DNA from: a virus
DNA: 28,446 nt
Strand: one strand, 5' to 3'
IMG/VR virus record: IMGVR_UViG_3300024518_007042
Location: 1 to 28,446 of that record
Below the pieces are notes generated by a model. That model searched no databases. It worked only from the letters and a program-made list of their open reading frames with translations, and was not told where the DNA came from. The position numbers and the translations under genes were made by a program. This document shows positions 1-12,466 of the stretch, piece by piece. The stretch's first letter is position 1. Every line of letters starts with the position of its first letter.

Positions 1-252
1 TTACACGAACTCCATGAGATTAACTATGCCAATAGAGGCAACCATACGAGAGTTAAAATACATGCGGGTAACATAATCATCTAGATCAATGTAGAACCCT
101 ACAGGTTCATTAGCGTTGATCTTCCCAAAAATGTAATCAATGTACTTCGGGAAGTCATTGTACTGCTCTGATCCCTCACGTTCTGGCGCAGAAAGGTAAG
201 GTTCTTCTCGCCCAATTACGTCTATCCGCACTTGTCGTGTCTTTAGTTTCAT
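1..252 (-). CDS. Hypothetical protein, predicted leaderless mRNA
   Basis: Complete 83-residue reading frame whose TAA stop is the first three bases of the window. I do not recognise the family. The product is mixed acidic/basic, with a basic N-terminus (MKLKTRQVR) and no Cys, signal peptide or membrane segment. The ATG has no Shine-Dalgarno sequence. Instead a near-consensus promoter (-10 box at 259..264) ends 6 nt before it, so transcription should begin at about the A of the ATG. It is therefore the first gene of a new transcription unit that continues beyond the window. The start is well supported by that promoter; the function is unknown. Confidence 0.75.
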   Translation of the reverse strand: MKLKTRQVRIDVIGREEPYLSAPEREGSEQYNDFPKYIDYIFGKINANEPVGFYIDLDDYVTRMYFNSRMVASIGIVNLMEFV

Positions 253-258
253 GCAGTA

Positions 259-287
259 ATTCTAACACACATGGGATCACTTGTCAA
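259..287 (-). promoter_or_regulatory. Near-consensus promoter, leaderless type (P1)
   Basis: On the minus strand the -35 box is TTGACA (282..287), the spacer is exactly 17 nt, and the -10 box is TAGAAT (259..264) preceded by TGT, an extended -10. The predicted start of transcription, about 7 nt after the -10 box, falls at 252, the A of the next gene's ATG. The -35 box lies within the last sense codons (Leu-Asp-Lys) of the upstream metalloprotease-like gene. Confidence 0.8.
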
Positions 288-714
288 GCGGGATGGCCCT
301 CAAAGCTTTCAGTGCTTTCTTCTGACTCAAGATATTCCCATAAAGCGAGCTACTGAGTTGCTTGGCTAGTTCCTTCTCGTACCAACGGCGGCTGTCCCGG
401 TTGTGGTGCTCATCGATGTACGCAAGCTGGGCACGGTAGGCTTCCAGTTCCTGATCTAGACGGAACCGTATATCGGCTAGGTACTCATCCCACCATGCCT
501 CAACGTTACCGAACTCGTCTTGCTGACGATGATGCACCGCCTCGTGAACGAAGATGTCTTCAGGCAGAATGGTTTCTCCATCAGCGCCTTGTGGAAAATA
601 AATCTTACCATCATACGCGAACACTACTCCGTGGGTGCTCATAGCGTACCCTAAGACAGTGGCAATCTTCTCAACATTCGGCGGGAAGTCATGGACGACT
701 TCAGGCTTACTCAT
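277..714 (-). CDS. HExxH zinc metalloprotease-like protein
   Basis: The 145-residue product carries the zincin motif HEAVH at residues 57-61, in a hydrophobic context (EDIFVHEAVHHRQQ), followed about 30 residues later by the acidic segment QELEAYRAQ (88-96). That segment could supply the third zinc ligand, Glu91. This layout, short with a basic C-terminal half, matches small phage-encoded putative metallopeptidases whose substrate is unknown. There is no signal peptide, so it probably acts in the cytoplasm. Its start overlaps the stop of the upstream FmdB-like gene by 4 nt (ATGA), which indicates translational coupling. Catalytic activity is inferred from the motif only. Confidence 0.65.
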   Translation of the reverse strand: MSKPEVVHDFPPNVEKIATVLGYAMSTHGVVFAYDGKIYFPQGADGETILPEDIFVHEAVHHRQQDEFGNVEAWWDEYLADIRFRLDQELEAYRAQLAYIDEHHNRDSRRWYEKELAKQLSSSLYGNILSQKKALKALRAIPLDK

Positions 715-908
715 TGATTGTGCTTATGTTCATAGATGGGGTCCGTTGACTTCGTGAAACCCTCTGCATTGAAAGATAGTGAAGGGGCGGACCAGATACG
801 CTTAAGCTGCGCACCACAGTCTGGGCACTCGTCTGGATGCAGACCGGCGCTATGGTTAATCTCGTATATCTTGTTAGTAGCAACGCATTTGTATTCGTAC
901 TCAGGCAT
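711..908 (-). CDS. FmdB-type zinc ribbon protein
   Basis: Product of 65 residues if started at the ATG at 908. This start is preferred over upstream in-frame ones because AAGGA sits at proper spacing and the protein then opens with MPEYEYKC, the typical FmdB-family beginning. The C-terminal half has the family's CPDCG knuckle (Cys28, Cys31), then LKRIWSAPS and a GF...STD segment. Oddly, the first knuckle is incomplete: Cys8 is followed by Val-Ala-Thr, so the usual second Cys is missing and metal binding may use His19 or be lost. FmdB-like proteins are thought to be small regulators, and phage copies have no defined role. It overlaps the upstream gene by 8 nt. Confidence 0.75.
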   Translation of the reverse strand: MPEYEYKCVATNKIYEINHSAGLHPDECPDCGAQLKRIWSAPSLSFNAEGFTKSTDPIYEHKHNQ

Positions 909-1347
909 CTTCATTTCCTTTATATCGATCATCTAGTTCGGGGTGCTCATCAGCAAATGTAAGTAATGCTAGTGCATGAAATACTACGGCAGCAAGGTGA
1001 TTACTTCCAGTGTCTGCATCAATGTCTTCGCCCGACTTCCAAGCGTTTAGGTGCCGCTCAAGGGCAGCAGTGGACAGAGACCAATCGTAACCTCGCCTCC
1101 AGTTGTTAGGAGCATATTTTTGAGCACCTATTCCATAATGGCGAGCGATCTGTCTCATAGCCCCTGCGGGGATAAGGTCAAATCGTTCCATCTTGGAACC
1201 CTTCTCTCCACCAGTCTTTTCGTTCACTATGCGAATTTCCTTCTCATCCTTGGCGTCTTCGTCAAGGTTCACCACATGGACTTTAGCGCCGGACATCTTA
1301 TTCAAATTCATCCAGTGATTTTGACGCTGTTCATAGTCTTCACTCAT
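901..1347 (-). CDS. dATP/dGTP diphosphohydrolase-family protein
   Basis: The 148-residue product contains, from residue 53 to about 132, the pattern of the dATP/dGTP diphosphohydrolase N-terminal family (PF18909 by recall): MERFDLIPAGAMRQIARHYGIGAQKY, then NNWRRGYDWS, ALERHLNAWKSGEDID and SNHLAAVVFHALALL. Family members are MazG/HD-like, all-helical phage enzymes thought to remove dATP or dGTP from the nucleotide pool. The first 50 residues are charged and poorly conserved. It lies in an overlapping set with the HNH endonuclease gene (8 nt overlap) and the FmdB-like gene. Together with dCMP deaminase at 6975..7424 it suggests active control of dNTP pools. The exact substrate is not readable from sequence. 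Confidence 0.75.
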   Translation of the reverse strand: MSEDYEQRQNHWMNLNKMSGAKVHVVNLDEDAKDEKEIRIVNEKTGGEKGSKMERFDLIPAGAMRQIARHYGIGAQKYAPNNWRRGYDWSLSTAALERHLNAWKSGEDIDADTGSNHLAAVVFHALALLTFADEHPELDDRYKGNEDA

Positions 1348-1723
1348 CTTGTACCATTTCTAGTAGTTTCGGTTGCCAGTATTTCTTATTGCCATGAACG
1401 GTCGTATGGCAAACACCGCACAGAACTATAAGATTCTCTACAGTATGTGGACCACCCTCAGAACGATATCTGATATGGTGGATCTGAGTAAGGTCAGTGC
1501 CTCTACACAGTCTACACGTTCTATCGTCTCTTGTCAAGACTGTTTCAGCGATTGCTGGTGGCATAGGATCTTTCTTTGCCTTACGCTTGATCGCAGTACG
1601 CTTCGCTGCTGAGGCAGTGCGGTTAGCGATGAAGTGGTCATTACTACAATAGCTGGAGAGTCCAACCCTGTAAGCGCCGTCACGATCAACGAACGCTCCG
1701 CAATGTTTGCACTTCACCTTCAT
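1340..1723 (-). CDS. HNH endonuclease
   Basis: The 127-residue product has a complete HNH nuclease domain in its C-terminal half: C70-x2-C73, the histidine pair at 82-83 (IHHIRYRSEGG), Asn97 in ENLIVLC, then C102-x2-C105 and His106/His110 (CHTTVHG). The N-terminus carries a separate zinc knuckle, C5-x2-C8 with Cys26. A basic linker at about residues 36-52 may contact DNA. It could be a homing-type nuclease or an HNH protein working in packaging. Against a recent homing insertion, it is embedded in the operon, overlapping its upstream neighbour by 4 nt and its downstream neighbour by 8 nt. The terminase genes are not in view. Confidence 0.85.
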   Translation of the reverse strand: MKVKCKHCGAFVDRDGAYRVGLSSYCSNDHFIANRTASAAKRTAIKRKAKKDPMPPAIAETVLTRDDRTCRLCRGTDLTQIHHIRYRSEGGPHTVENLIVLCGVCHTTVHGNKKYWQPKLLEMVQDE

Positions 1724-2010
1724 AGCGTCTGTAAGTCGAACAGAAAGAACGTGTTATACCGAGCACGATGATAGTTTGCTTTGGTACGAATACTTTCACT
1801 CAAACCACGATACCCAACAGCCACAGGCTGCGAATACTCTGCGCACCAATCCAAGTCTTCTTGAATGCATTCCATCTGCACTGGGCAGGCTGAACACACA
1901 GACTCGGCTTCCTTCTCCCGAAGATCGTCAAAGAATATTGTGTTGCTCATGTCTGAGCATGAGGCATACTCTTCCCATCTAACGGTACGACCCTCAGTCA
2001 TCTGATTCAT
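1720..2010 (-). CDS. WhiB-like iron-sulfur transcriptional regulator
   Basis: Product of about 96 residues with the Wbl signature. In numbering from the in-frame TTG at 2016, Cys20, then Cys41-x2-Cys44-x5-Cys50 would bind a [4Fe-4S] cluster, followed by GYRGLSESIR, which matches the family's G-[VI]-W-G-G turn and R/K-rich segment. Wbl proteins bind the primary sigma factor and redirect transcription, and several actinophages carry one that modulates host genes. An extra Cys58 is present. The start is uncertain: ATG at 2010 or at 2001; the longer TTG start is unlikely. It overlaps the HNH gene by 4 nt. This gene is the main evidence for an actinobacterial host. Confidence 0.85.
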   Translation of the reverse strand: MNQMTEGRTVRWEEYASCSDMSNTIFFDDLREKEAESVCSACPVQMECIQEDLDWCAEYSQPVAVGYRGLSESIRTKANYHRARYNTFFLFDLQTL

Positions 2011-2287
2011 CTTCAACCAATGCTTCGATCGCTGCGGCAGAATCCGTCAGAACGTCCAGACCAATATCGACTGCATAGGAACCCATCTCCAACATCTTGA
2101 TCACAACGCTTTCAATCTCACGAGAGATCAATTCATCATCTGTACGATAGATTACGCTGATAGTCTTCAGAAGCTGCGCCACGGGGGTTGACCCGTTTTG
2201 CTCTAGATAGGAGATCTCCAGTGCGTCCTCATGGAACGTAATACTAAAGACCTGATTGTCGTTTGCGTTTTCAGTCACACTACTCAT
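1994..2287 (-). CDS. Hypothetical acidic protein
   Basis: Complete 97-residue frame preceded by GGAG seven nt before its ATG, which overlaps the stop of the upstream gene (ATGA). The protein is acidic, begins with a polar stretch, has an alternating hydrophobic segment (QVFSITFHEDALEISYLEQ, residues 12-30) suggestive of beta strands, and then a helical acidic C-terminus ending DESDD. No family is recognised. Its place between a replication gene cluster and the WhiB-like regulator gives no clear role. Confidence 0.7.
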   Translation of the reverse strand: MSSVTENANDNQVFSITFHEDALEISYLEQNGSTPVAQLLKTISVIYRTDDELISREIESVVIKMLEMGSYAVDIGLDVLTDSAAAIEALVEDESDD

Positions 2288-2712
2288 AATACTTCTCCAA
2301 ATGTAAATGACAGATCTGTCGAGCCAATCTCGCCAGTCTCTTTATCCACGTTAGTGATGTAGCTTCCCTCAGGATGTGTAGCCACGTTATCGTCTGATTC
2401 TATCAACCCATCGTTGACACCCTCTACTGCTTCACCCATATTGTCTAGCAGGTAGCGAGCTTCATGCCCGTCCAACAATGCAACATGCTCAGCACGAAAT
2501 GTGTTTGCTCGTTTCAAGTCACCAGTCTTTTTAAGATAGGTAAACTTTGGTGCCTCTACTCGACAGGTCACAATGAATGTCAACTGTTCATCATGACATA
2601 GCGGTGCTGCAATATCTTCTTCCATCTCAAATGACCCAGCCATCCGGCCTTCATAGATAGTTACAGGTTGCCCATCGAAGTACTCTGTACCGTCAATAAG
2701 TTTCTTGCTCAT
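2284..2712 (-). CDS. Hypothetical protein
   Basis: Complete 142-residue frame with a strong ribosome binding site (AAGGAG, 7 nt before the ATG). The product is acidic. A central beta-like segment (LTFIVTCRVEAPKFTYLKKTGDLKRANTF) is followed by a helix rich in Glu and Asp, and the last 30 residues are again beta-like. The arrangement resembles small phage proteins often found beside replication genes in actinophages, but I cannot assign a family. It is coupled to the downstream 97-residue gene by a 4-nt overlap. Confidence 0.7.
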   Translation of the reverse strand: MSKKLIDGTEYFDGQPVTIYEGRMAGSFEMEEDIAAPLCHDEQLTFIVTCRVEAPKFTYLKKTGDLKRANTFRAEHVALLDGHEARYLLDNMGEAVEGVNDGLIESDDNVATHPEGSYITNVDKETGEIGSTDLSFTFGEVL

Positions 2713-2727
2713 GCTCTTGCTCCTTCT

Positions 2728-2949
2728 CTAGTCATCGTAATCGAACTTCATACTCTCAGCAGATACTGAGGTAACTCCGACTCCATAGCCGGTTAAACCT
2801 AAAGCTCCCTCTTTAACGAGAGCCTCTAACCAAATTGTAATATCCTTGCGCTCTGCGTCTGTGGCGGCAATAATACCTGTAACAGCAAACGTAGAAGTGA
2901 ATGTTCCAGTGTGGTCAGATTCGATCTTCCCAACTCTACCTTTAGCCAC
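2728..2949 (-). CDS. Hypothetical protein, GTG start
   Basis: 73 residues when started at the GTG at 2949. A perfect GGAGG lies 6 nt before that GTG, and the start overlaps the primase-helicase stop by 8 nt. The longer in-frame version begins with TTG at 2988, would overlap the primase gene by 47 nt and lacks such a site, so I reject it. The protein has a Thr-rich beta-like N-terminal half and a helix (DITIWLEALVKEGALGL, about residues 36-52). The family is not recognised. Confidence 0.65.
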   Translation of the reverse strand: MAKGRVGKIESDHTGTFTSTFAVTGIIAATDAERKDITIWLEALVKEGALGLTGYGVGVTSVSAESMKFDYDD

Positions 2950-4861
2950 TCTCAGCCTCCGCAGCTTTAGCTTGTAACGCTTGCTCAAGCGAGTTGTGGG
3001 GAAGGTCTAGTCTATTGTCCCCGGTCATATGTCTGTAGACGGCAACCCTCCAGTCATCTCCAGCCATCCCATATTGGACTTCCTTTAAGGCTCGACCATA
3101 CAAAGGATCAGACTTGGGTATCACTGCTAAGGTGAGTGGAGCGAACTGTAGGATTACTTTAGTATTCACACCACCATCACGAGACTTCAGGATCTTCAGG
3201 TGAAGTTGGCGCTTTTGCTCATCTTCCTCTGTCCCTATCTGCTGATCCGGTGCCCAGAGGGCAAGGAGAAGGTCTGAGGTCTCTTCTACGGCCCCAGAAC
3301 CACGCCCCATGTCCGCTGATACCTCTTTACCAAAGTCGCCTGAGCGGTTAGCCTGATGAGGCATCAAAACACTGACGCCACGGTCCTTAGCTAACGCCTT
3401 GGTATCCATGATACAATCTGTGATACGAGTGTACTCTTCGCCACGATAAGACCTAGCAAAGTAACCTAGGTAATCAATGACAACGAAGTTGGGATACTTC
3501 CCAGTCTCGAAAGCATACTGGTCGATACAGGTTTCTAGATCATCGATAGAGAGCCGGTTCTTGTCAATCATCAAAAGACTCTTGGCCCAGAAGGCTTGCG
3601 TGTCTAGAACTGTTGCACCGGGGTTATAAAAATTATGTATACGATGTGCTCGCTCAAACCATTCGTTCCTAGTCTGCTCTAGAGAGACATAGAGGAACTG
3701 CAAGGTTGGATCTTTCAGCAACATGCGATACATTATGTTAATAGTTGTCAACGTCTTACCGCTGTTGCTGCGGGCAATCGTAGTCACAACTTGTCCCGGC
3801 AGAATGCCATGCTGCAAGTGACCATCTAGTTCATCAATGTTGAACCAAGTTCCTGCAAGGTTAGCGTTGCCCTCAACTTCAAGCCACTGCTCATAGGCGT
3901 CATGCACTGTAACCAGTAGACCACCCTTGGCTTTGATGAGCAACATATCAATGTCATCTTTAGTCTTGCCCTTGCCAACCACAAACTCTGTTACATCGAG
4001 CTTCTTCTTGGAGTCTGGGAATGAGGCGATGCGAGCACGAGGACCAAACTTTAGGGCCAACTTTTCTGCACCATTATGTCCAGCGGTATCGTTGTCGAAT
4101 AGGATGAACACTCGTCCAGCTTCATCGAAGTAGGACATCCACTCGTCATTCCAAATATTCTCTCCCGGCACTCCACAAGCAGCGTAACCCATCTGCTGCA
4201 AAACTGCGGCATCGAACTCTCCTGCGGTAATGATTACATCACGCTCGCCACGGATCTCGTCAGCACCAAATAGCTGTGCCTTGGAACCGGGGAGACTCAT
4301 ATACTTCCCACCGATCCGTTTGCCACGGACAGCGGTAGTATTACCGTAATCGAAGTATGGAATCGTGATCTGATCCTCAAGAAACTCTGTGCCACTATGT
4401 TTAATAAGGCCAGCCTCTTTAATGCTGTCCATGCTGTAGCTCTGGGAGATGAGGTAAGCCAGCAAACCATTGTCTGCCCAGCCCAACTGCATGTCCTCGA
4501 TCTTCTCTTTAGTCAACCCACGATCATACAGAAGATAATCATACACTTCTGCGTTCGCTTTGAGACACTCTGTATAATATCGTGTGGCATCATTAAAGAT
4601 CTGGCTACTGGTGACAGTAGCTGTAGCGCCATACTTGTTTGGGTCATCACCGAAATGGGCGATCAGAGAACTGAACACACCTTTCGACTGACACAAGTGA
4701 CAGAAGTATTTGCCGTGGTCGTCATCTGGGGCAGTGTGAACATAGAGACGCCCCTTCTTGTTCTCGTCTTCATCGCAGAAGAAGCAATGAGTGTGACCTT
4801 CGCCACTGTTAGTACTTTTAAGCTCGACACCCTGTGTCTCTAGATAGCTAGTTACATCCAT
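2942..4861 (-). CDS. DNA primase-helicase
   Basis: 639-residue bifunctional replication protein of the T7 gp4 type. A zinc-binding domain comes first (C26-x2-C29 and C54-x2-C57). A TOPRIM primase domain follows, with TAGEFDAAV (Glu215) and LFDNDTAG (Asp256, Asp258) as the metal-binding residues. The C-terminal half is a DnaB/RecA-fold helicase with Walker A ARSNSGKT (363-370), Walker B FVVIDYLG (Asp463) and a HQANRSGD element (502-509) matching the DnaB H4 region. It would unwind the fork and lay primers during phage replication. It follows the 136-residue unknown gene by 2 nt. No DNA polymerase lies in this window, so that enzyme is encoded elsewhere or supplied by the host. Confidence 0.93.
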   Translation of the reverse strand: MDVTSYLETQGVELKSTNSGEGHTHCFFCDEDENKKGRLYVHTAPDDDHGKYFCHLCQSKGVFSSLIAHFGDDPNKYGATATVTSSQIFNDATRYYTECLKANAEVYDYLLYDRGLTKEKIEDMQLGWADNGLLAYLISQSYSMDSIKEAGLIKHSGTEFLEDQITIPYFDYGNTTAVRGKRIGGKYMSLPGSKAQLFGADEIRGERDVIITAGEFDAAVLQQMGYAACGVPGENIWNDEWMSYFDEAGRVFILFDNDTAGHNGAEKLALKFGPRARIASFPDSKKKLDVTEFVVGKGKTKDDIDMLLIKAKGGLLVTVHDAYEQWLEVEGNANLAGTWFNIDELDGHLQHGILPGQVVTTIARSNSGKTLTTINIMYRMLLKDPTLQFLYVSLEQTRNEWFERAHRIHNFYNPGATVLDTQAFWAKSLLMIDKNRLSIDDLETCIDQYAFETGKYPNFVVIDYLGYFARSYRGEEYTRITDCIMDTKALAKDRGVSVLMPHQANRSGDFGKEVSADMGRGSGAVEETSDLLLALWAPDQQIGTEEDEQKRQLHLKILKSRDGGVNTKVILQFAPLTLAVIPKSDPLYGRALKEVQYGMAGDDWRVAVYRHMTGDNRLDLPHNSLEQALQAKAAEAESG

Positions 4862-4863
4862 AT

Positions 4864-5274
4864 TTATACCAATCGAATATTCTGGCTGACAGTAAGCTTG
4901 GTCCCTCTTGTGACGGACTCGTTGTGATCGCTGCGCCTCAACCGAACACTGCGGTCTCTACCATCGTACAGGTCAATGAATGCGACATCCGTAGTCATCA
5001 ACGCTTTCCCAACAAATTCCATATCAATAGAATCTAATCTGGGGATATTGAAATCATAGAAGCTGCAGATAGCCACCACTTGTTCATGTTGATCTCTACA
5101 TACTGCGATAATGTTCTCATACTCCATGCCCATCAAGAGATCAGTGATTAGGAATGCTCCAGTCAGCACTTGGGGGTCCACGTCTTCTGTCACAAATTCC
5201 TCAATTCGATCCACTGTTTTATAAACCATCTCAAAGACACGGGTTGTCACGGACCACAGCATAGATTTCATCAT
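4864..5274 (-). CDS. Hypothetical protein upstream of primase-helicase
   Basis: Complete 136-residue frame whose stop lies 2 nt before the primase-helicase start, so the two are likely cotranslated. Residues 36-60 are hydrophobic helix-like (LTGAFLITDLLMGMEYENIIAV), and 62-110 alternate in a beta-like way. There are two Cys (59 and 70) but no zinc motif and no membrane helix. The position suggests an accessory role in replication, which is inference. The frame opens Met-Met; either ATG could be used, and the first overlaps the upstream stop by 4 nt. Confidence 0.7.
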   Translation of the reverse strand: MMKSMLWSVTTRVFEMVYKTVDRIEEFVTEDVDPQVLTGAFLITDLLMGMEYENIIAVCRDQHEQVVAICSFYDFNIPRLDSIDMEFVGKALMTTDVAFIDLYDGRDRSVRLRRSDHNESVTRGTKLTVSQNIRLV

Positions 5275-5501
5275 CGTACTACGACTCCACTAACTACTTT
5301 AAAGTGGCGGGTAGGCATACACTTCTTGCAATAAGAGGCGTATAGGGAAACAGGATGTTTTTGTCCGATGGTCCATCGGTGGTCTACTTCTCGTCTACAC
5401 ATAGTCATCTTGCCGTCAGTATACAACCTATGAAAGACATAGCCTTTCGGTGACGATGCAAACTCTGCTGTTATGAAGGTACTTGTAACTGGTGCGTTCA
5501 T
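5271..5501 (-). CDS. Small putative zinc-binding protein
   Basis: 76-residue basic protein with a possible metal site formed by Cys35, His41, C58-x2-C61 and His66 (MCRREVDHRW and YCKKCMPTRHF). I do not recognise a named family. Its start overlaps the stop of the 54-residue upstream gene by 4 nt, and its stop overlaps the next gene by 4 nt, so it sits in a tightly coupled operon. DNA or RNA binding would be a reasonable guess for a small basic Cys/His protein, but it is only a guess. Confidence 0.65.
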   Translation of the reverse strand: MNAPVTSTFITAEFASSPKGYVFHRLYTDGKMTMCRREVDHRWTIGQKHPVSLYASYCKKCMPTRHFKVVSGVVVR

Positions 5502-5662
5502 GTAATCTCTCGCTTAGGGGTGGTTTCTAGTCGGTAAGCTACCAATTCCCAGCCGGGGGCATCTGAAGGAGCGTTCTTACGCACCCAACCTGCCAGCTCT
5601 TCATTGGTAGTAGCGTGGAAAGCAATCTGTGCTAGCGCATCTTGATCTATCTCTATGTCCAT
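5498..5662 (-). CDS. Small hypothetical protein (54 aa)
   Basis: I found this short gene by translating the gap between its neighbours. It begins at the ATG at 5662, 2 nt after the upstream stop, and ends in a TGA that overlaps the next ATG (ATGA). The product opens MDIEIDQDALAQIAFHATTN and contains a GWVRKNAPSD-type segment and a Gly-Trp-Glu-Leu pair before a charged tail. It is mildly acidic, without Cys or membrane segments. The perfect tiling with both neighbours is the main evidence that it is real. Confidence 0.65.
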   Translation of the reverse strand: MDIEIDQDALAQIAFHATTNEELAGWVRKNAPSDAPGWELVAYRLETTPKREIT

Positions 5663-5664
5663 AA

Positions 5665-6138
5665 TCAGTGTCCAGCCCCTTCGGTCAGTTCAAAAATGGC
5701 GTCTTCAAGTAACTCGTACATATGGTCAGTATTAATATCCTCACAAACTATAGAGGCCATCGCATCATCCATGCGCTCTACAAGAGACTTTGCTGGTGCT
5801 ACCTTGGGGACGGGGAGTCCATGCTCCAACAAGCGATCTTCGTTAGTCCATCCGAAGGCACGGCCATTCGGAGTAATCATACGCCTAGTTGCTTCGGATG
5901 GACTCGTTCGCTCATTCTGCATCATATCGATCCACACAATAGCGGGCAGAGCATGTTCCGATGCTTCCTCTGGTCGTTCCGCTGGGAGTAGTGGAGTCAT
6001 CGGGCCTTCCTTCTCGCAAAGCTCCACCCATGAGTCGCACAGGGTGATATCGCACGCCCACTGGCCCTGCTGAGTTGTCCTCCACAAGCAATTATCTCTG
6101 TCGAGTGCGTACCCTGATTCGGGTTCTGGCGTGCTCAT
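5665..6138 (-). CDS. Hypothetical protein, paralogue of next gene upstream
   Basis: 157-residue acidic protein. Residues 51-111, from LPAERP through TPNGRAFG to LPVP, align with most of the 69-residue product of 6135..6344: LPAxRP, a W-[IV]-D pair, an I-x-[ST]-PNG core, then Leu-Glu and a Pro-rich end. It also has an N-terminal block with four Cys (17, 29, 34, 41) and a C-terminal acidic helix (VERMDDAMASIVCEDI...ELLEDAIFEL). The family is unknown. It overlaps the upstream paralogue's stop by 4 nt, which fits tandem duplication followed by fusion or loss of flanking parts. Confidence 0.65.
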   Translation of the reverse strand: MSTPEPESGYALDRDNCLWRTTQQGQWACDITLCDSWVELCEKEGPMTPLLPAERPEEASEHALPAIVWIDMMQNERTSPSEATRRMITPNGRAFGWTNEDRLLEHGLPVPKVAPAKSLVERMDDAMASIVCEDINTDHMYELLEDAIFELTEGAGH

Positions 6139-6344
6139 ATCTGTTCCGTTCGTGTAGGGATGGGCATATCAACCTTCTCTAACTGAAGTGAACTGCGAGT
6201 GCCGATCCACCCACCATTAGGGCTGAGGATCTCGTATCGGTCTGGCTGGTGCATGTGGGGATGCAGAACATCTACCCATGTAACTACAGGGACAGCTTGA
6301 GCCGAAATACTATCTGGCCGGATCGCCGGGAGAACATGAATCAT
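6135..6344 (-). CDS. Small hypothetical protein, paralogue of 5665..6138
   Basis: 69-residue protein made almost entirely of the domain shared with its downstream neighbour: LPAIRP (5-10), VTWVD (21-25), ILSPNG (39-44), LEKVDMPIP (55-63). The His-rich insert HPHMHQP (28-34) is specific to this copy. Its ATG overlaps the stop of the 52-residue gene upstream by 4 nt. No function is assignable; the shared domain is probably a small protein-protein or nucleic-acid binding unit, which is inference. Confidence 0.6.
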   Translation of the reverse strand: MIHVLPAIRPDSISAQAVPVVTWVDVLHPHMHQPDRYEILSPNGGWIGTRSSLQLEKVDMPIPTRTEQI

Positions 6345-6499
6345 TTCTTCTTCTTCTTTCTAGGGCCAGACTGTTGCACAAGATCAGCGCCACACTCTTT
6401 CCCATGAACAAAGCCGATGCAATGCATCAGCCTGTCTGGAGAAACAATCTGGTGAGACGGATTGTGTTTACAGCGATAACCAAATCTAATTTGTGCCAT
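6341..6499 (-). CDS. Small Cys/His protein with polylysine tail (52 aa)
   Basis: Found by direct translation. The frame starts at the ATG at 6499, has 52 codons and ends in TGA overlapping the next ATG (ATGA). The product has Cys10, His12, His16, Cys27, His32 and Cys36, enough to form one zinc site, and ends in RKKKKK. That basic tail suggests nucleic-acid binding. Its 5' end overlaps the stop of the upstream gene by 14 nt. No family recognised. Precise tiling with its neighbours and the Cys/His pattern support it. Confidence 0.6.
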   Translation of the reverse strand: MAQIRFGYRCKHNPSHQIVSPDRLMHCIGFVHGKECGADLVQQSGPRKKKKK

Positions 6500-6758
6500 C
6501 GTTGATAACCCTTTCGACCGTTACGCTCAATGCTCCAGTGAGGCGTCCAACATGAGGACTGCCTCTGAGTCTGGCATCGACCAACTTCATTGTAGTAGGA
6601 AACTTCTTACCGCCACCGTGGATACCAACCCACACAACGTCTGCAACTTCTGCAGACTGGGGGTCGTAGATGGCATCGCCAACCTCAACATCGAATATGC
6701 CAATAACTTCTGTGTCAGGCTTGGCGTTTTTCTTCTTGCGTTTCTTCTTCGGCGGCAT
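6486..6758 (-). CDS. Hypothetical basic protein, predicted leaderless mRNA
   Basis: 90-residue protein when started at the ATG at 6758, giving the N-terminus MPPKKKRKKK followed by a folded region with several Gly/Val beta-like stretches (EVIGIFDVEVGDAIYD, VVWVGIHGGGKKFP). An ATG six codons upstream (6776) lies inside the promoter spacer and could not be transcribed from that promoter. The -10 box ends 6 nt before the chosen ATG, and no Shine-Dalgarno sequence is present, so the mRNA should be leaderless. The lysine-rich head suggests DNA or RNA contact. The family is unknown. Confidence 0.7.
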   Translation of the reverse strand: MPPKKKRKKKNAKPDTEVIGIFDVEVGDAIYDPQSAEVADVVWVGIHGGGKKFPTTMKLVDARLRGSPHVGRLTGALSVTVERVINDGTN

Positions 6759-6764
6759 GTTGTT

Positions 6765-6793
6765 AGTATAACACATCCTCTGTCAGATGTCAA
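6765..6793 (-). promoter_or_regulatory. Near-consensus promoter, leaderless type (P2)
   Basis: Minus strand: -35 TTGACA (6788..6793), spacer 17, -10 TATACT (6765..6770) preceded by TGT. The predicted start of transcription is 6758, the A of the next ATG. It lies 12 nt beyond the 3' end of the tRNA-Tyr gene and so restarts transcription for the block of small genes and the primase-helicase. Confidence 0.85.
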
Positions 6794-6805
6794 CTCGATT
6801 AGTAG

Positions 6806-6887
6806 TGCCGAAGGCAGGATTTGAACCTACACTGCTCGAAAGCGGGAGATTTACAGTCTCCTGAGCGGCCAGTTGCTCAACTTCGGC
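6806..6887 (-). tRNA. tRNA-Tyr (GTA)
   Basis: 82-nt class II tRNA. The acceptor stem GCCGAAG pairs perfectly with CTTCGGC, the anticodon loop is CTGTAAA (anticodon GTA), there is a long variable arm, and the T-loop is TTCAAAT. Discriminator A; CCA is not encoded. It is the last member of the tRNA cluster in transcription order. Confidence 0.93.
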
Positions 6888-6896
6888 GGGGGTGTC

Positions 6897-6970
6897 TGGC
6901 AGGGATGCACAGAATCGAACTGCGAGCCTTTGATTTGGAAGCAAAAATGTTACCGTTACACCACATCCCC
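6897..6970 (-). tRNA. tRNA-Trp (CCA), CCA tail encoded
   Basis: A 71-nt body (6900..6970) plus encoded CCA (6897..6899). Acceptor GGGGATG pairs with CATCCCT, with G-U at 1-72. The D arm GTGT...ACAT resembles short phage tRNAs, and the T-loop TTCGATT is canonical. The anticodon loop reads TTCCAAA (anticodon CCA), with a C-T mismatch at 31-39 and a 4-nt variable loop. G73 followed by CCA fits tRNA-Trp. The alternative, tRNA-Gly (TCC) with the loop shifted by one base, needs two mismatches at the top of the stem. Confidence 0.7.
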
Positions 6971-6974
6971 CTGT

Positions 6975-7424
6975 TTAATAAACGAACTCTACTTCAATAC
7001 GGTCGTCCGAGTCAAATAGGTTCATCCACGGAATACGAGGACAGACTACACGAGTAATTGCAGTTCCTAAGATCGCACGCTGGCATCCAACGCATGGAGC
7101 CTTGTTCACATACAATGTGGACTCATGGAACTGCGTAGGATCGCCGTGAGTGAGCGCATTAACTTCAGCGTGGGCTGCGAAGCAAAGCCCCGGTCCAGAG
7201 TCATAGGTGGAACCTGAGGGCACGTCAGACGTACCTCTGGGGCACCCACCGTCCCTACAATGCTGCCAGCCACTCGGAACTCCGTTAAAACCTGTACCGA
7301 TGATACGCTGAGTCTTATTATTTACGATAACGCTGTAAACTTCAGCTTTACTACAGGTGGAGAAGATGGGTGCTGCGGCACTGCACAGGTCAAGCCATTG
7401 TTGATCTTTGCGAATAATTGTCAT
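6975..7424 (-). CDS. Deoxycytidylate (dCMP) deaminase
   Basis: 149-residue zinc deaminase that converts dCMP to dUMP, feeding thymidylate synthesis. The catalytic signature is H85-A-E87-V-N-A with PC111-x2-C114. A second Cys/His cluster (C24, H56, C57, C61) resembles the structural site of T4-type enzymes. The usual FNGVPSGWQHC substrate loop is present at 47-57. Start chosen at the ATG at 7424; the longer frame would run into the tRNA-Asn gene, which ends at 7428. There is no Shine-Dalgarno sequence, only CTT between the tRNA discriminator and the ATG. It sits between tRNA genes, an unusual placement. It also has the nucleotide-pool partner at 901..1347. Confidence 0.9.
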   Translation of the reverse strand: MTIIRKDQQWLDLCSAAAPIFSTCSKAEVYSVIVNNKTQRIIGTGFNGVPSGWQHCRDGGCPRGTSDVPSGSTYDSGPGLCFAAHAEVNALTHGDPTQFHESTLYVNKAPCVGCQRAILGTAITRVVCPRIPWMNLFDSDDRIEVEFVY

Positions 7425-7427
7425 AAG

Positions 7428-7500
7428 CTCTGAGGGGAGGGGACGATCCTCCAACCTTCGCATTAACAGTGCGCTGCTCTGCCAGTTGAGCTACCCCAGA
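7428..7500 (-). tRNA. tRNA-Asn (GTT) with swapped T-loop pair
   Basis: 73-nt cloverleaf: acceptor TCTGGGG with CCTCAGA (one G-T pair), anticodon loop CTGTTAA (GTT), discriminator G as expected for tRNA-Asn. The T-loop reads ATCGTCC, so the nearly universal T54 and A58 are replaced by A54 and T58, a paired swap. Position 27-43 is a G-A mismatch. CCA is not encoded. The dCMP deaminase ATG follows after 3 nt. Confidence 0.85.
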
Positions 7501-7556
7501 AAAGGTGAGTAGTTTTACACCGTGCTCAGGGTGTCTGTGTTCAATCAGAATTTGAG

Positions 7557-7629
7557 AGCCTGAGAGGAGAATCGAACTCCTGACCTGCTGATTACAAAAC
7601 AACTGCTCTGCCGACTGAGCTACTCAGGC
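7557..7629 (-). tRNA. tRNA-Thr (TGT)
   Basis: 73-nt cloverleaf: acceptor GCCTGAG pairs perfectly with CTCAGGC, D stem GCTC/GAGC, anticodon loop TTTGTAA (anticodon TGT), T arm AGGAG-TTCGATT-CTCCT. Discriminator T; CCA is not encoded. It is the first tRNA of the cluster, 7 nt after the 64-residue gene. Confidence 0.92.
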
Positions 7630-7636
7630 ATATTCT

Positions 7637-7831
7637 TTATTCGTCTAACCATTCCCTGAATTGCTGTCCCAGAAAAGCTGCGAACATTCCTTCAATTATC
7701 GCTGCAGTTTGTTTGGGGTTCTCGGTGTCTGACAACGGCCTACTAAATATTACTGCATCCCCTAGGGAGATTTTAACCTCATCGTGAGTGGCTTTGGTTT
7801 CAACTACTGACTCCGTGCGGAAGGGCACCAT
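7637..7831 (-). CDS. Small hypothetical protein (64 aa)
   Basis: 64-residue frame with AAAGGA 4 nt before its ATG. The first half is beta-like (ESVVETKATHDEVKISLGDAVIFSRPL), and the second half is a helix (KQTAAIIEGMFAAFLGQQFREWLDE) that could be amphipathic. No family is recognised. It lies 20 nt after the upstream 230-residue gene and 7 nt before tRNA-Thr, so it is probably on the tRNA precursor transcript. Confidence 0.6.
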   Translation of the reverse strand: MVPFRTESVVETKATHDEVKISLGDAVIFSRPLSDTENPKQTAAIIEGMFAAFLGQQFREWLDE

Positions 7832-7851
7832 GACATCCTTTTGGATTGGGT

Positions 7852-8544
7852 TTATAATTTACGAGTGGGTGGAGGGTTTTCACGATCTGGGAGATCCTGA
7901 GGATTTATTCTAATAGGGTCAGGCTGCACACGAGAACTCTTCATATCCTCGGGCATGTCTGGCATCGTGAAGCCCTCACGTTCACGCACCGGCGGCGCAT
8001 CTGGAGTAACTTCTTTAGGTAGAATATCCATATCATGCTCTGCGGCCAGATCCTCGAACATTTTGAGAAACGCAAGAACCTCTTCTTCGGGGGCTGGCGG
8101 GTTCGGAAGATCATCTGTGATGTGATGAATGTCATCATCGATCAGACCACTGTAGAGTCCTGTTCCATCAGCCGCTACGCATGTCACGATGTCTCCGTGG
8201 ACAGAAGGCTGTATGAATACTTCAGTAATGCGTTTACCCATCACCCTGATATCAGCATCCTCAAACGTTACTGCTGCTGCAACATCCACCGCAGACATTG
8301 ATGTCTTGGCGGCTTTTCCTTCGACTGCAATAAGAAATGCTGACAGTTCTTCGGCTGCTTCGTAGAAGGCAAACGCTTCGGTGGACATGCGCTCTTCTTT
8401 GGGGCGAGTCTCCGTGGGGCGATTAGCGTTCTTGGCTTCTCTCTCTTCAGCCGTCATGGGAGGAAGCTGAGTGGTCCCATTCATAGGAAGAAGATGAATC
8501 CGTTCTTCCAATTCTTCTGGCGTCAGTTCAATTCTAGAATCCAT
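7852..8544 (-). CDS. Hypothetical acidic protein
   Basis: 230 residues when started at the ATG at 8544, which has AGGA 8 nt upstream. A longer start at 8601 would place the first codons in an 11-bp hairpin and is rejected. The product is acidic and Pro-rich at both ends (LPPMTAEEREAKNANRPTETRP; NPPAPEEE; PPPTRKL), with a central structured portion of about 55 to 150 that includes an Ala-rich helix (FAFYEAAEELSAFLIAVEGKAA) and a beta-like VFIQPSVHGDIVTCVAADG. No known family. It follows the structured spacer after the SSB-like gene. Confidence 0.65.
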   Translation of the reverse strand: MDSRIELTPEELEERIHLLPMNGTTQLPPMTAEEREAKNANRPTETRPKEERMSTEAFAFYEAAEELSAFLIAVEGKAAKTSMSAVDVAAAVTFEDADIRVMGKRITEVFIQPSVHGDIVTCVAADGTGLYSGLIDDDIHHITDDLPNPPAPEEEVLAFLKMFEDLAAEHDMDILPKEVTPDAPPVREREGFTMPDMPEDMKSSRVQPDPIRINPQDLPDRENPPPTRKL

Positions 8545-8574
8545 AATACGTGTCCTGTTCCTTCCGAGGGAAGA

Positions 8575-8605
8575 GGGGATGGATGCTGCGAAAACATCCA
8601 TCCCC
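8575..8605 (-). other. Strong 11-bp hairpin in leader of 7852..8544
   Basis: Read on either strand, GGGGATGGATG pairs perfectly with CATCCATCCCC around a 9-nt loop, and flanking GGAAG/CTTCC bases extend it with a bulge. It lies 31 nt before the ATG at 8544. No T-run follows on the minus strand, so it is not a classic intrinsic terminator. It may protect an mRNA end, mark a processing point or control translation of the gene below it. Confidence 0.6.
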
Positions 8606-8668
8606 CTTCCGGTTGTAAATCAAGGGAGAAGGCTCTCCACGACAAGAGTCTCTCAACCTATATTTACG

Positions 8669-8700
8669 GCATAAAGGCGGCGGGAGGAACGCCCCTATGC
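8669..8700 (-). other. Imperfect hairpin after SSB-like gene
   Basis: GCATA and GGCG pair with CGCC and TATGC across a 2x2 internal mismatch and a 10-nt loop. It begins 13 nt after the stop of the SSB-like gene. With the smaller hairpin at 8625..8638 and the strong one at 8575..8605, it fills the 168-nt gap between the two genes. I see no protein-coding frame or promoter there. Confidence 0.4.
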
Positions 8701-8712
8701 GACTTTGGTATG

Positions 8713-9267
8713 TTAGAAGGGTTCAAACTCTGAGTTTACCTCAGCTTGAGCTTCACGAGATACCGGTGCCACTGCTACGTTGCCGTCTGTCTGTGATGCA
8801 GATGCTGTGTCGGCTCGTAGAACCTCACCCACACAGTCAACCATCTCACCCTTCTTCTTGTTGAACTTTTCGCCAACAAGGATGCGGCAGTTAAGTCCAA
8901 CGAAGTCGTCGGATTCAAACTCGTAGCCATCTGGAAGATCGCCACCACCGAGAATGGTTTTGGTCCAGTTGCGGAGACGACAGGTGTTGCGCTCGTCTTC
9001 GTACCAGTTAGCTTTGGCGTCACCGAAAAGAACACGCTTCTCATAATCGCCGTCCACTACACGGAACCAGAACTTAACCTGATGGGTAGAGCCGTCTTTC
9101 TGAGGGTAGTTCTCAAGGAACCACTGTGAGTACTCTTCAACGAAACACTTCTCGATAACTACGTTAACGATCTCGTTTGCTGGGATGGGTGTGAACTTCT
9201 TGTCCTCGCCACCTGAGTTCCCAGCGGATGCTGGTGCTGGTGCCGTGGCTGATGCGGGTAGTTTCAT
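8713..9267 (-). CDS. Putative ssDNA-binding protein (phage SSB-like)
   Basis: 184 residues with a disordered Ala/Pro/Ser-rich head (1-22), a central domain and a polar tail ending in an acidic-aromatic SEFEPF, reminiscent of the acidic C-terminal tips of SSB proteins. The core has the pattern of phage proteins that accompany recombinases: FWFRVVDGDYEKRVLFGDAK, CRLRNWTKTILGG and DFVGLNCRILVGEKFNKKKGEMVDCVGEVLRA, the last close to the GxxCRvxvg...kNxVxxvl motif of DUF669-like proteins. It overlaps the Sak4-like ATPase gene by 4 nt, which fits a shared recombination role. The ssDNA-binding role is inferred from pattern and context. Confidence 0.65.
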   Translation of the reverse strand: MKLPASATAPAPASAGNSGGEDKKFTPIPANEIVNVVIEKCFVEEYSQWFLENYPQKDGSTHQVKFWFRVVDGDYEKRVLFGDAKANWYEDERNTCRLRNWTKTILGGGDLPDGYEFESDDFVGLNCRILVGEKFNKKKGEMVDCVGEVLRADTASASQTDGNVAVAPVSREAQAEVNSEFEPF

Positions 9268-10034
9268 TGTGAATCTCCGTTGTTGAAAATGATCTCTAAG
9301 TCTTCGTCAGCGCCTTCGATTTCGACGCCTTCCTCTTCAGAGGATGCACACATTATAGCACCTTGCTGGTTGTGTGTCAAGTGGAATGACCCATAATCTT
9401 GGATTATTGGGTCTGTGCCCGTTAGGGCATGAGTCCAACTATCGTCATTTGTAAGACGGTAGGTTCCAAGAACTGGGTCCGCACCTTCTGGGAGTTCCTT
9501 GAGCGGAACTTCTGTACGAAAGGCGTAATCGATGTAGTTGTGAATCTGGTTCCCGAACTGTCCACCGATAGCCAGTTTGTCCATCTCGTCGTTAATTCGA
9601 CAGGTGATGACAACGTGCATATCTAGACTGGTTATGGCCGTAAAGATCTTGTTGAATCGTGTAGCGATCCAGCCCCAGTCTTCCATAGTGGTTTCTGATC
9701 GTTTCTTATCTGCCAAGCGGCTCATAAGAATTCGGCGCTGGAGTTCATCGACTGAATCGATTACTAGAGTTTCTGGAACATAGTCACCAAGCGCCCCCTC
9801 TGGGCCAGCCTTGATGGCCTCGACCACGGTTGCCACATCAGCTTCGCTGTAGACATCGGCGTAGGGAAACTCTCTGTTTGTCACAGAGGCGAGTCCTGCC
9901 GCACAATTGACCACGAATGGGTTAGGAAACCCTGTAGCGAAAGAGGTCTTGCCTGAGCCGGGGTCACCGGCAACAAGAACTTTCAGATGCTCGGGCCAAA
10001 ATTTGCCCTTGGTGCTGAAGTGGATAATTCCCAT
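9264..10034 (-). CDS. Sak4-like RecA-fold ATPase
   Basis: 256-residue single-domain ATPase. Walker A is GDPGSGKT (23-30), Walker B is LVIDSVDE (90-97), and a later strand ending in VVITCRIND matches the sensor region of phage AAA_24/Sak4 recombinases. Sak4 proteins are RecA/Rad51-like single-strand annealing helpers that work with a phage SSB and a nuclease, and all three are adjacent here. The C-terminal 40 residues are acidic. The ATG abuts the upstream TAA, and AAAGG lies 8 nt before the ATG. A near-consensus promoter is buried in the 3' part of this gene (9352..9380). Confidence 0.85.
   Translation of the reverse strand: MGIIHFSTKGKFWPEHLKVLVAGDPGSGKTSFATGFPNPFVVNCAAGLASVTNREFPYADVYSEADVATVVEAIKAGPEGALGDYVPETLVIDSVDELQRRILMSRLADKKRSETTMEDWGWIATRFNKIFTAITSLDMHVVITCRINDEMDKLAIGGQFGNQIHNYIDYAFRTEVPLKELPEGADPVLGTYRLTNDDSWTHALTGTDPIIQDYGSFHLTHNQQGAIMCASSEEEGVEIEGADEDLEIIFNNGDSQ
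9352..9380 (-). promoter_or_regulatory. Near-consensus promoter inside the Sak4-like gene (P5)
   Basis: Minus strand: -35 TTGACA (9375..9380), spacer 17, -10 TATAAT (9352..9357) preceded by TGC. All three elements lie within coding sequence for the Sak4-like protein. The predicted start of transcription near 9345 is about 78 nt before the SSB-like gene's ATG, so unlike its siblings it would give an mRNA with a leader. It would raise SSB-like expression over the ATPase. Confidence 0.7.
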
Positions 10035-10259
10035 TTATGAAGCCTTTAGTTTAGATGGTGACTTGAAAGGTGCGACAAGGAGAGATAGAAGGAGGGACAT
10101 GCCAATGGCTGGTCCAAATCCTACCGTCACGGGAAGTAGTCCCTCGTGAAATCCCATCCCTACCAATACCATGAGTGCCCAAGCTTTAATCCCTATAATG
10201 AGGGGAATGGTTATGATCATGAATAGTACGAGTATGACCGCTTTTGATTCCTTGTCCAT
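10035..10259 (-). CDS. Small membrane protein, predicted leaderless mRNA
   Basis: 74 residues from the ATG at 10259 (MDKESK). A longer open frame exists, but this ATG is 7 nt after a strong -10 box, so transcription from that promoter begins at about the start codon. There are two hydrophobic segments: residues 7-24 (AVILVLFMIITIPLIIGI) and about 41-63 (LPVTVGFGPAIGMSLLLSLLVAP). The C-terminus is basic (FKSPSKLKAS). Two helices and a charged tail are compatible with a holin-like protein, but no lysis genes are nearby and the place between nuclease and recombinase genes argues for caution. The next gene starts immediately. Confidence 0.75.
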   Translation of the reverse strand: MDKESKAVILVLFMIITIPLIIGIKAWALMVLVGMGFHEGLLPVTVGFGPAIGMSLLLSLLVAPFKSPSKLKAS

Positions 10260-10266
10260 ACTAGCT

Positions 10267-10295
10267 AGTATAGCAGATCCGCAACCTTTTGTCAA
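10267..10295 (-). promoter_or_regulatory. Near-consensus promoter, leaderless type (P3)
   Basis: Minus strand: -35 TTGACA (10290..10295), spacer 17, -10 TATACT (10267..10272) preceded by TGC. Predicted start near 10260, with the ATG at 10259. The -35 hexamer contains the TGA stop codon of the Cas4-like nuclease gene. Confidence 0.85.
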
Positions 10296-11122
10296 GCCAA
10301 TTCGATTGAACGGCCCAGTTGGTCTTCGTTGAGATAGATAAGGCACTGATCTTGAAAATCGCAGAAGCGACATGAGGCGGCAGAGATGTTGGGCATGAAC
10401 ACTTCAGCTTCAATGGAAGCCTCAATAGCTTCTATGCAGCGATACAAACGAACTATATCAGTAGTTCCCCGAGGTCCACAGAAATACTCTTTGCCATTGC
10501 GAGTGTCGAACCAGTATACCCTATGCTCATAATCCTTGTACTTCTCGTACAGTTCTTCGCCGTTCGGGTAGCCAGTGTACTTATCAGAACCCTCTACGCC
10601 TACCCAGAACTCGCGCTGGGCTACGGCCCATGCGTATGATGTCATCTGAATATCGAGACTTAGGTTATCTGCATTAGGGCGGAAGCCAGTTTTGTAGTCT
10701 CTGATGTAGAGGATGCGAGCGTGCTCATCCACTGATACCTCATCTATGATGCCAGAGATTTCGTGGTTCCCTATAGGCACACAGAAACGTTTCTCTGCAC
10801 CGATTACTACATCGTTAGCAGCGGCACGAAATTCAACGAAGTCATGGACTTGCGCTTGACCCTTCTCGTGGTATCCACTAGCCGATGTACGGCGGGGCCA
10901 ATCCATCTCCTGCTTCAGGGAAGCTTCCCAGAGGTCTAGGAACTCTTGTACGGCAGCGTCTTCGTCACCATTATTGTTATAATGCTCGAAAGCTGCGTGC
11001 ACGGCAGTACCAAATTCTGCTGCGGCATTGACACGCCATTCCTGTAGGCCATCGACATAAGCGAACTTAGCCTTGAGGCTACAAGACATCCAATTCTTTA
11101 GTAATGAGGGGGATACTTTCAT
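10292..11122 (-). CDS. Cas4-like PD-(D/E)XK exonuclease with Fe-S site
   Basis: 276-residue RecB/Cas4-family nuclease. The N-terminal GTAVHAAFE (His42), GIIDEV (Asp127), DYKTG (Asp142, Lys144) and the following Gln159/Tyr163 form the PD-(D/E)XK active site. Cys14 together with Cys251, Cys254 and Cys260 (CRFCDFQDQC) would hold a [4Fe-4S] cluster. Such enzymes resect DNA ends and, with an annealing or Sak4-type protein, drive phage recombination; both partners follow downstream. Its ATG overlaps the upstream stop by one base (TGATG). There is no CRISPR array or cas1/cas2 in view, so this is not a CRISPR adaptation gene. Confidence 0.88.
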   Translation of the reverse strand: MKVSPSLLKNWMSCSLKAKFAYVDGLQEWRVNAAAEFGTAVHAAFEHYNNNGDEDAAVQEFLDLWEASLKQEMDWPRRTSASGYHEKGQAQVHDFVEFRAAANDVVIGAEKRFCVPIGNHEISGIIDEVSVDEHARILYIRDYKTGFRPNADNLSLDIQMTSYAWAVAQREFWVGVEGSDKYTGYPNGEELYEKYKDYEHRVYWFDTRNGKEYFCGPRGTTDIVRLYRCIEAIEASIEAEVFMPNISAASCRFCDFQDQCLIYLNEDQLGRSIELA

Positions 11123-11604
11123 CAGGTGATATTGCTCCGATAAGGAACGAAGTATAGTTGAAACGTGGCGTTCTTAATAGTTCCTATAGTTCCGCCAGTA
11201 TTGGAAAAGAATATAGTGTCTAGTGGTGACACAATGCGTTCTGGCAAGGCTACTCCACCGCTCGAAAGTTTGTTACCCAAATCATAAGAAGTGATACGAT
11301 CACCGGGGTAGGAGGCGTCTCGATAGACCCAGATATTTTCCATAACGGTGTCTGGTGAAGGGGTGGCTGTCGAAGTCTTTCTAAGACTATAAATAAGATA
11401 AGAACCGGCTATGCTAGAAAGACACATTGTCTTAATTCCTATTAGGTACAAATCCTGAATTGGAGAAAAGGTGCTGGATACATGACCCGACAATGCTGCA
11501 TCGGATTGAGATATTGTCATAGTGGCCGTGATGGGATCATGATAACGATCAGCGCTAACAATCTCCTGATTTTGTAGTGTTCTAAGTTCCCTATAATCTG
11601 GCAT
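11122..11604 (-). CDS. Hypothetical beta-rich protein
   Basis: 160 residues from the ATG at 11604, chosen because AGGAG lies 8 nt upstream and the ATG overlaps the upstream stop (TAATG). The protein is Ser/Thr-rich with many short alternating strands (ITATMTISQSDAALSGHVSSTF; ATFQLYFVPYR), a composition common in virion surface or tail proteins. One hydrophobic patch (LYLIGIKTMCLSSIAGSYLIYSL, about 59-81) could be a buried strand pair. The family is unknown. It lies at the border between virion and recombination genes. Confidence 0.6.
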   Translation of the reverse strand: MPDYRELRTLQNQEIVSADRYHDPITATMTISQSDAALSGHVSSTFSPIQDLYLIGIKTMCLSSIAGSYLIYSLRKTSTATPSPDTVMENIWVYRDASYPGDRITSYDLGNKLSSGGVALPERIVSPLDTIFFSNTGGTIGTIKNATFQLYFVPYRSNIT

Positions 11605-12038
11605 TACACCATCTCCTTGCCGCATCCGAAACAGATGAAGTGATCTGTGTTGAACTTGTAGCCACCGAAGTAGCCCAAGTGTTTACATTCCTGTGCGAAT
11701 TTAAGAACACCAGCTTTGGGCATTTTATTCAAAGCCCCTACTGGCATCATCCAGCTTTCTCCCGAGTCTATGAAGTCGGATCTCCGACCCCAACCCAAGA
11801 GCATTCCATCTTGCACTAGAACAAATATATCCGCATTAGCTTTCTTAAAGTGGAAGTACCTGTCTTCAATTGTGCCAGCTACAAGGACCACCTTGTTAGA
11901 TAGCTCATCTTCGAACTTGATTCCCTGTGGGTGGACCATAGAGATAGTAAGCTCTGGATTATATCGGTCCATGAATGACCGAACACCACCAACCACATCG
12001 TCATCCAATTTGCTATAAAGATTTTCTAACGTGGTCAT
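11604..12038 (-). CDS. Hypothetical protein, predicted leaderless mRNA
   Basis: 144 residues from the ATG at 12038 (MTTLENLYSKL). An in-frame ATG three codons earlier overlaps the -10 box of promoter P4 and cannot be on its transcript. The -10 box ends 7 nt before the chosen ATG, and no Shine-Dalgarno sequence is present. The C-terminus has a knuckle-like CFGCGKEM with an upstream Cys and His (ECKHLGYFGGYKFNTDHFICFGC), a plausible zinc site. No family is recognised. It starts a new transcription unit at the end of the tail gene cluster. Confidence 0.7.
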   Translation of the reverse strand: MTTLENLYSKLDDDVVGGVRSFMDRYNPELTISMVHPQGIKFEDELSNKVVLVAGTIEDRYFHFKKANADIFVLVQDGMLLGWGRRSDFIDSGESWMMPVGALNKMPKAGVLKFAQECKHLGYFGGYKFNTDHFICFGCGKEMV

Positions 12039-12045
12039 TCCAGTC

Positions 12046-12074
12046 ATTATAGCATACCTAACCTCTTATGTCAA
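12046..12074 (-). promoter_or_regulatory. Near-consensus promoter, leaderless type (P4)
   Basis: Minus strand: -35 TTGACA (12069..12074), spacer 17, -10 TATAAT (12046..12051) preceded by TGC, a full consensus match with an extended -10. Predicted start near 12039, with the ATG at 12038. The TGA stop of the upstream structural gene (12071..12073) lies inside the -35 hexamer. Confidence 0.88.
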
Positions 12075-12466
12075 GCCGGTGATTTCAGAGCCTTACCATT
12101 AAACGACCAGTGAACCATCATCTTTTGGAAAGACACCCCGCCGGAAACCACTCCAAGACGAGCACCAAGGTAGAGCCTACCTTGTGGTGGAGATTCCTTT
12201 GTGGTCCAGCTAAGCACACATACGTTGGCCCACGGCATGAAGCCGGGAACCTGAGAGTCGCCCTCGATTAACTCTGCGCCAAACGAAAGAATGGGTTTCT
12301 CTACGAACCTAGTGGGGAAGGTCACATCGATTTGAGCTTCGCCCTGTCCATTGACACGGAACTGTCCAGTTACGGCAGTAGCTGTGGCTTGAAAGCCGCT
12401 CTGACCCTTCCTGTCCACATTGCCAGCATTTATTTGTGACTGAAAATTTTGAATGTAGTTGTTCAT
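12071..12466 (-). CDS. Putative minor structural (tail) protein
   Basis: 131 residues with AGGA 8 nt before its ATG, which overlaps the stop of the giant tail protein gene (ATGA). The sequence is Gly/Gln/Val-rich and beta-like (TAVTGQFRVNGQGEAQIDVTFPTRFVEKPILSFGAEL), with motifs seen in receptor-binding or host-contact tips of tails. There is no Cys cluster or helical segment. The role is inferred from its place as the last gene of the tail block. Confidence 0.6.
   Translation of the reverse strand: MNNYIQNFQSQINAGNVDRKGQSGFQATATAVTGQFRVNGQGEAQIDVTFPTRFVEKPILSFGAELIEGDSQVPGFMPWANVCVLSWTTKESPPQGRLYLGARLGVVSGGVSFQKMMVHWSFNGKALKSPA

Follow-up and report, generated by a model that had tools for sequence, protein, structure and literature searches.

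Extended -10 promoters and the genes behind them

The IMG/VR virus record IMGVR_UViG_3300024518_007042 is a linear phage fragment of 28,446 bp with ~49% GC, which was analysed as a whole and is referred to as the window in the following. The minus strand carries the called genes, four of which are predicted to be expressed from leaderless or near-leaderless mRNAs. A search of the full 28.4-kb record for the strict pattern TTGACA-N14-TGN-TANNNT, with no mismatch allowed, returned five exact matches, which without exception lie on the minus strand and within the non-structural 12.1 kb. Each of the five sites combines the elements expected for a sigma-70/sigma-A extended -10 promoter, that is TTGACA, a 17-nucleotide (nt) spacer, TGN and a TATAAT-like -10 box. 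The original prediction, made from the sequence of the window, had named four of these promoters (-10 boxes ending at 259, 6765, 10267 and 12046) with a perfect TTGACA, a 17-nt spacer and TGN, followed by an ATG 6, 6, 7 and 7 nt past the box. All four are present exactly as claimed and the offsets are confirmed, but a fifth perfect member of the family at 9352 had been overlooked and came up in the whole-record motif search.

Promoter 1 (259..287, minus strand; TTGACA-N14-TGT-TAGAAT) is separated by the 6-nt discriminator TACTGC from the ATG at 252, which opens gene 1 (1..252, minus; 83 amino acids), a predicted leaderless gene in the best codon-usage frame and with no Pfam or PHROG match. The -35 element of this promoter falls within the upstream coding sequence. 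Promoter 2 (6765..6793, minus; TTGACA-N14-TGT-TATACT) lies directly downstream of tRNA-Tyr; its 6-nt discriminator AACAAC leads to the ATG at 6758 of gene 2 (6486..6758, minus), which is likewise predicted to be leaderless and encodes 90 amino acids with a lysine-rich N-terminus and no family match. At promoter 3 (10267..10295, minus; TTGACA-N14-TGC-TATACT), the -35 element includes the TGA stop codon of the upstream exonuclease gene (GCT TGA CA), and the 7-nt discriminator AGCTAGT precedes the ATG at 10259. Behind it, predicted leaderless gene 3 (10035..10259, minus) encodes 74 amino acids and, judging from its hydrophobic sequence, probably a membrane protein. Promoter 4 (12046..12074, minus), a perfect TTGACA-N14-TGC-TATAAT, sits at the border of tail genes and replication genes, and its -35 element also includes the TGA stop of the upstream gene (GCT TGA CA); the 7-nt discriminator GACTGGA is followed by the ATG at 12038 of gene 4 (11604..12038, minus; 144 amino acids; no family match), the last gene predicted to be leaderless. 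The intergenic gaps holding these four promoters measure 24, 46, 32 and 32 nt, respectively. The four genes had been described as being of unknown function, which holds insofar as none of them convincingly matches a Pfam or PHROG family.

Promoter 5 (9352..9380, minus; TTGACA-N14-TGC with a perfect TATAAT at 9352-9357) is located inside the Sak4-like gene (9264-10034). The gene behind it is leadered (8713..9267, minus): its ATG at 9267 lies 84 nt past the box and is accompanied by the Shine-Dalgarno (SD)-like sequence GGAG. It encodes 184 amino acids and is possibly a single-stranded DNA-binding protein, according to a weak PHROG match. Inside the HNH gene, a sixth but weaker candidate (TTGACA, 17 nt, TAGACT) was observed at 1509-1537 (minus), ~160 nt upstream of the next gene.

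Promoters and promoter-ATG spacing exceed chance expectation

Dinucleotide-preserving shuffles (n = 400) yield 0.025 strict promoters per window as compared to five observed, which corresponds to a ~200-fold excess. A promoter combined with an ATG at 6-7 nt does not occur even once in any of the 400 shuffles, as compared to four instances in the record. Given the observed ATG frequency, the probability that at least four out of five promoters carry an ATG at offset 6-7 is ~1.6e-5, and it is 6e-4 when offsets 5-9 are allowed. A match to the consensus alone does not show function, and scanning the first 15 kb under looser criteria found 24 promoter-like sites where 18.8 are expected, as would fit sites that are chance matches or inactive. 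However, the excess of the strict pattern, its invariable placement on the coding strand and its location at a gene junction at four of the five sites render this explanation scarcely credible.

Coding status and start codons of the four genes

Codon usage is best in the annotated frame for each of the four open reading frames (0.03 to 0.15 bits/codon), whereas the other five frames all score negative. Their coding status is, like the promoters, the spacing and the statistical excess, directly established. At three sites, in-frame ATGs are found further upstream (6776, 10373 and 12047), in front of the predicted +1. Those at 6776 and 12047 lie 18 and 9 nt before the starts at 6758 and 12038, respectively, and the resulting extensions are too short to score; positioned before the expected +1, these ATGs would not be available on mRNAs made from the promoters. 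The 38-codon extension of gene 3 from 10259 to 10373 reads across the promoter and has a non-coding score (-0.35 bits/codon), which favours the start at 10259. Longest-frame rules would thus miscall the start in three of the four genes, and sites of this kind may help to correct start calls in uncultured phages.

The original prediction also held that the four genes have no SD sequence. Indeed, at most 1-2 nt of the predicted mRNA could precede the ATG, leaving no place for an SD within the transcript; an anti-SD energy of -6.5 calculated for the start at 6758 stems from the promoter and lies outside the predicted mRNA. That neighbouring genes carry good ribosome sites is true in part: ~17 of the 32 other called starts reach an anti-SD energy of -4.4 kcal/mol or better, but several of the others are overlapping ATGA-type junctions, which are probably coupled, or miscalled starts. 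The gene at 11122-11625 (minus) overlaps the preceding gene at its called start, and an ATG ~21 nt downstream with the SD-like sequence AAGGAG is the likelier start. The dCMP deaminase frame is called from 7463, inside tRNA-Asn (7427-7500, minus), and has an in-frame ATG at 7424, ~3 nt past the tRNA 3' end; 3' processing of tRNA-Asn could itself yield a near-leaderless deaminase mRNA.

Operon-head genes with predicted leaderless mRNAs

In sigma-A promoters, the distance from the -10 box to +1 usually amounts to 6-7 nt. Transcription from the four promoters would thus be expected to begin at the A of the ATG or 1-2 nt ahead of it. We consider it likely that promoters of the host sigma-A type, placed in tight gaps, generate leaderless or near-leaderless mRNAs for genes at the head of operons, and for the four mRNAs in question the earlier proposal of leaderless transcripts is still the best reading of the sequence. 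In the arrangement that we propose, host RNA polymerase would read all five promoters, which appear to head successive transcription units in the non-structural half (recombination, tRNA, replication and nucleotide metabolism). At four sites, the promoter is squeezed into a gap of 24-46 nt and at three of them the -35 element reaches into the end or stop codon of the gene upstream; with +1 at or just before the A of the ATG, the 70S ribosome would bind the mRNA via its 5'-terminal AUG. Compactness may be the reason for this arrangement: a leadered start would cost ~25 nt more, so that packing would suffice to account for the leaderless layout.

Several observations weigh against this interpretation. 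The distance between the -10 box and the transcription start site varies by several nt, and the 7-nt sites could therefore carry a leader of 1-2 nt, which is reportedly less efficient. Gene 4 contains an in-frame ATG at +66 with the SD-like sequence GGTGG, albeit poorly spaced. Moreover, an 18-kb segment (66-84 kb) of the 280-kb record IMGVR_UViG_3300042402_002641 harbours about a dozen near-identical TTGACA-N14-TGN-TATAAT-like promoters, and at several of these an ATG follows at 6 nt as in the window. In contrast to the window, conservation extends there to the sequence following the box (an ACACAT[G/A]-like start-site sequence), and the record has no WhiB match; in some genes a further in-frame ATG occurs 21-24 nt on. 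Thus, an ATG at 6 nt is no proof by itself.

The promoters could accordingly be real and the nearby ATG incidental, that is part of a start-site sequence, with translation initiating on a short-leadered mRNA at a downstream in-frame codon that has its own ribosome site. The promoters of the 280-kb record fit this scenario, as they have TATAAT-ACACAC-AT[G/A] in common and two of those with an ATG at 6 nt possess the in-frame ATG 21-24 nt on. In the window, however, the four discriminators are mutually unlike, which argues that the ATG is not merely part of a duplicated promoter, and a strong, well-placed SD-led in-frame start is found at none of the four genes within ~60 nt downstream. An incidental ATG is therefore unlikely, and we favour leaderless or near-leaderless operon heads.

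No support for a separate class of leaderless genes

It had further been suggested that gene classes might be kept apart in the phage by two modes of translation initiation. This idea is unsupported: promoter 5 of the same family precedes a leadered gene, so that use of the family is not exclusive to leaderless genes, and the predicted leaderless genes just occupy the first position after a promoter, the transcript then continuing into genes that are SD-led or coupled. In a stronger version, the two modes would constitute a regulatory switch, in which leaderless genes, as a functional class, are selectively expressed under impaired leadered initiation. A common promoter and initiation architecture indeed links the four genes, all of unknown function, and leaderless mRNAs respond differently to initiation factors and some antibiotics (PMC4633059, PMC3160421). 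However, besides the leadered gene behind the fifth promoter and the operon-head position of the others, leaderless genes show no enrichment for any function in Mycobacterium smegmatis (PMC4633059) or Corynebacterium glutamicum (PMC3890552), and we regard such a switch as very unlikely. Dedicated strong leaderless operon heads might alternatively keep up or raise translation when leadered initiation suffers from infection or host stress, thereby providing a timing switch at the level of translation, which we judge highly improbable.

Genomic context and probable host

The right part of the window contains the tail genes (minus), including tape-measure and tail proteins at 12.5-23 kb and a minor tail protein. 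The non-structural block left of them (minus) encodes a RecB-like exonuclease, a Sak4-like annealing protein, four tRNAs, dCMP deaminase, a primase-helicase, WhiB, HNH and a dATP/dGTP diphosphohydrolase. The WhiB-family gene (1720..2016, minus) matches Pfam PF02467 above cut-off (E = 2.1e-9). WhiB occurs exclusively in Actinobacteria and their phages and serves as an actinophage marker (PMC10202952), and the host is hence probably actinobacterial, which supports the original assignment. An exact search of genome_contigs for the host with a 32-mer of tRNA-Thr gave no match.

Relatives are scarce. Neither a megablast search of INPHARED with the window nor a tblastn search of INPHARED with three of the leaderless proteins returned a match, and protein searches of IMG/VR with gene 4, the Sak4-like protein, the primase-helicase, a tail-protein alignment, gene 1 and gene 2 as queries found no close relative. 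The metagenomic phage GX15bay (MK557849, from mangrove soil) is the only one in INPHARED with recognisable kin of the tail proteins encoded at 12463-16968 and 17790-23024 (minus). This phage (63% GC), whose kinship is limited to remote tail proteins, lacks promoters like those of the window.

Recurrence of the architecture in uncultured phages

Scanning IMG/VR with TTGACA-N14-TGN-TATAAT-N0-30-ATG identified at least 120 stretches. Among the matches listed, ATGs opening reading frames of at least 60 codons occur 12 times at offset 6, three times at offset 7 and about once per offset at 8-18, and a separate broad leadered hump at offsets 23-35 makes the distribution bimodal. In 50 records from the scan, TTGACA-N14-TGN-TANNNT-N6-7-ATG has 27 matches as compared to none for the reversed control, a rate that is biased as 18 of the 50 had been picked for such sites. 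WhiB is present in none of the 50 IMG/VR records (0/50), indicating that the promoter-ATG architecture extends beyond actinophages. The genome_contigs sample of the strict TATAAT-N6-ATG pattern came mostly from Clostridia and Saccharibacteria, and the architecture alone does not identify the host. In this sample, the frame of the ATG is open for at least 60 codons in 38 of 112 cases, whereas the two remaining frames reach this length in 8 and 13. The IMG/VR scan suggests that an extended -10 promoter with an ATG 6 nt on recurs across many uncultured phage contigs, including ones unrelated to the window, and could serve annotation systematically.

Comparison with known leaderless systems

Leaderless genes are marked by TA-like -10 boxes ~10-12 bp upstream of their start codons, and in Actinobacteria more than 20% of the genes are leaderless and TA-led (PMC3160421). 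A 5' ATG or GTG is both required and sufficient for translation in mycobacteria (PMC4633059), and in C. glutamicum 33% of the mRNAs are leaderless, with distances of 3-11 nt between the -10 box and the transcription start site (PMC3890552). The phage sites resemble these TA-led actinobacterial genes (Zheng et al. 2011, PMC3160421; Shell et al. 2015, PMC4633059; PMC3890552) in that TANNNT directly precedes the start codon and an SD is missing. As expected for TA-led genes, the last base of the -10 box lies ~6-7 nt before the start codon at the four sites (6, 6, 7 and 7). TA-led host genes, however, usually have a weakly conserved -35 element, whereas the phage sites combine a perfect -35 with an extended -10.

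Among phages, the cluster O mycobacteriophages (Corndog and relatives; PMC4351075) provide the promoters PL1, PR2 and PL2 for comparison, and their PL6 resides inside a gene like the site at 9352. They differ in hosts and gene content and no sequence kinship is shown, and it is in the window that all five sites have a perfect TTGACA, TGN and a 17-nt spacer. Promoter P90 of the cluster K mycobacteriophage Adephagia (PMC11373665) also precedes a phage gene predicted to be leaderless; here, by comparison, four such sites follow one tight consensus in a single fragment. At near-consensus stringency, no leaderless site was found in the cultured actinophages Adephagia, PA6, AppleCider and KeaneyLin, and the strict consensus is thus not typical of these four. 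Taken together, the fragment provides a clean and tidy sequence example of a known leaderless architecture. While this architecture is familiar from Actinobacteria and their phages, the distinguishing trait here is the uniform, near-perfect consensus.
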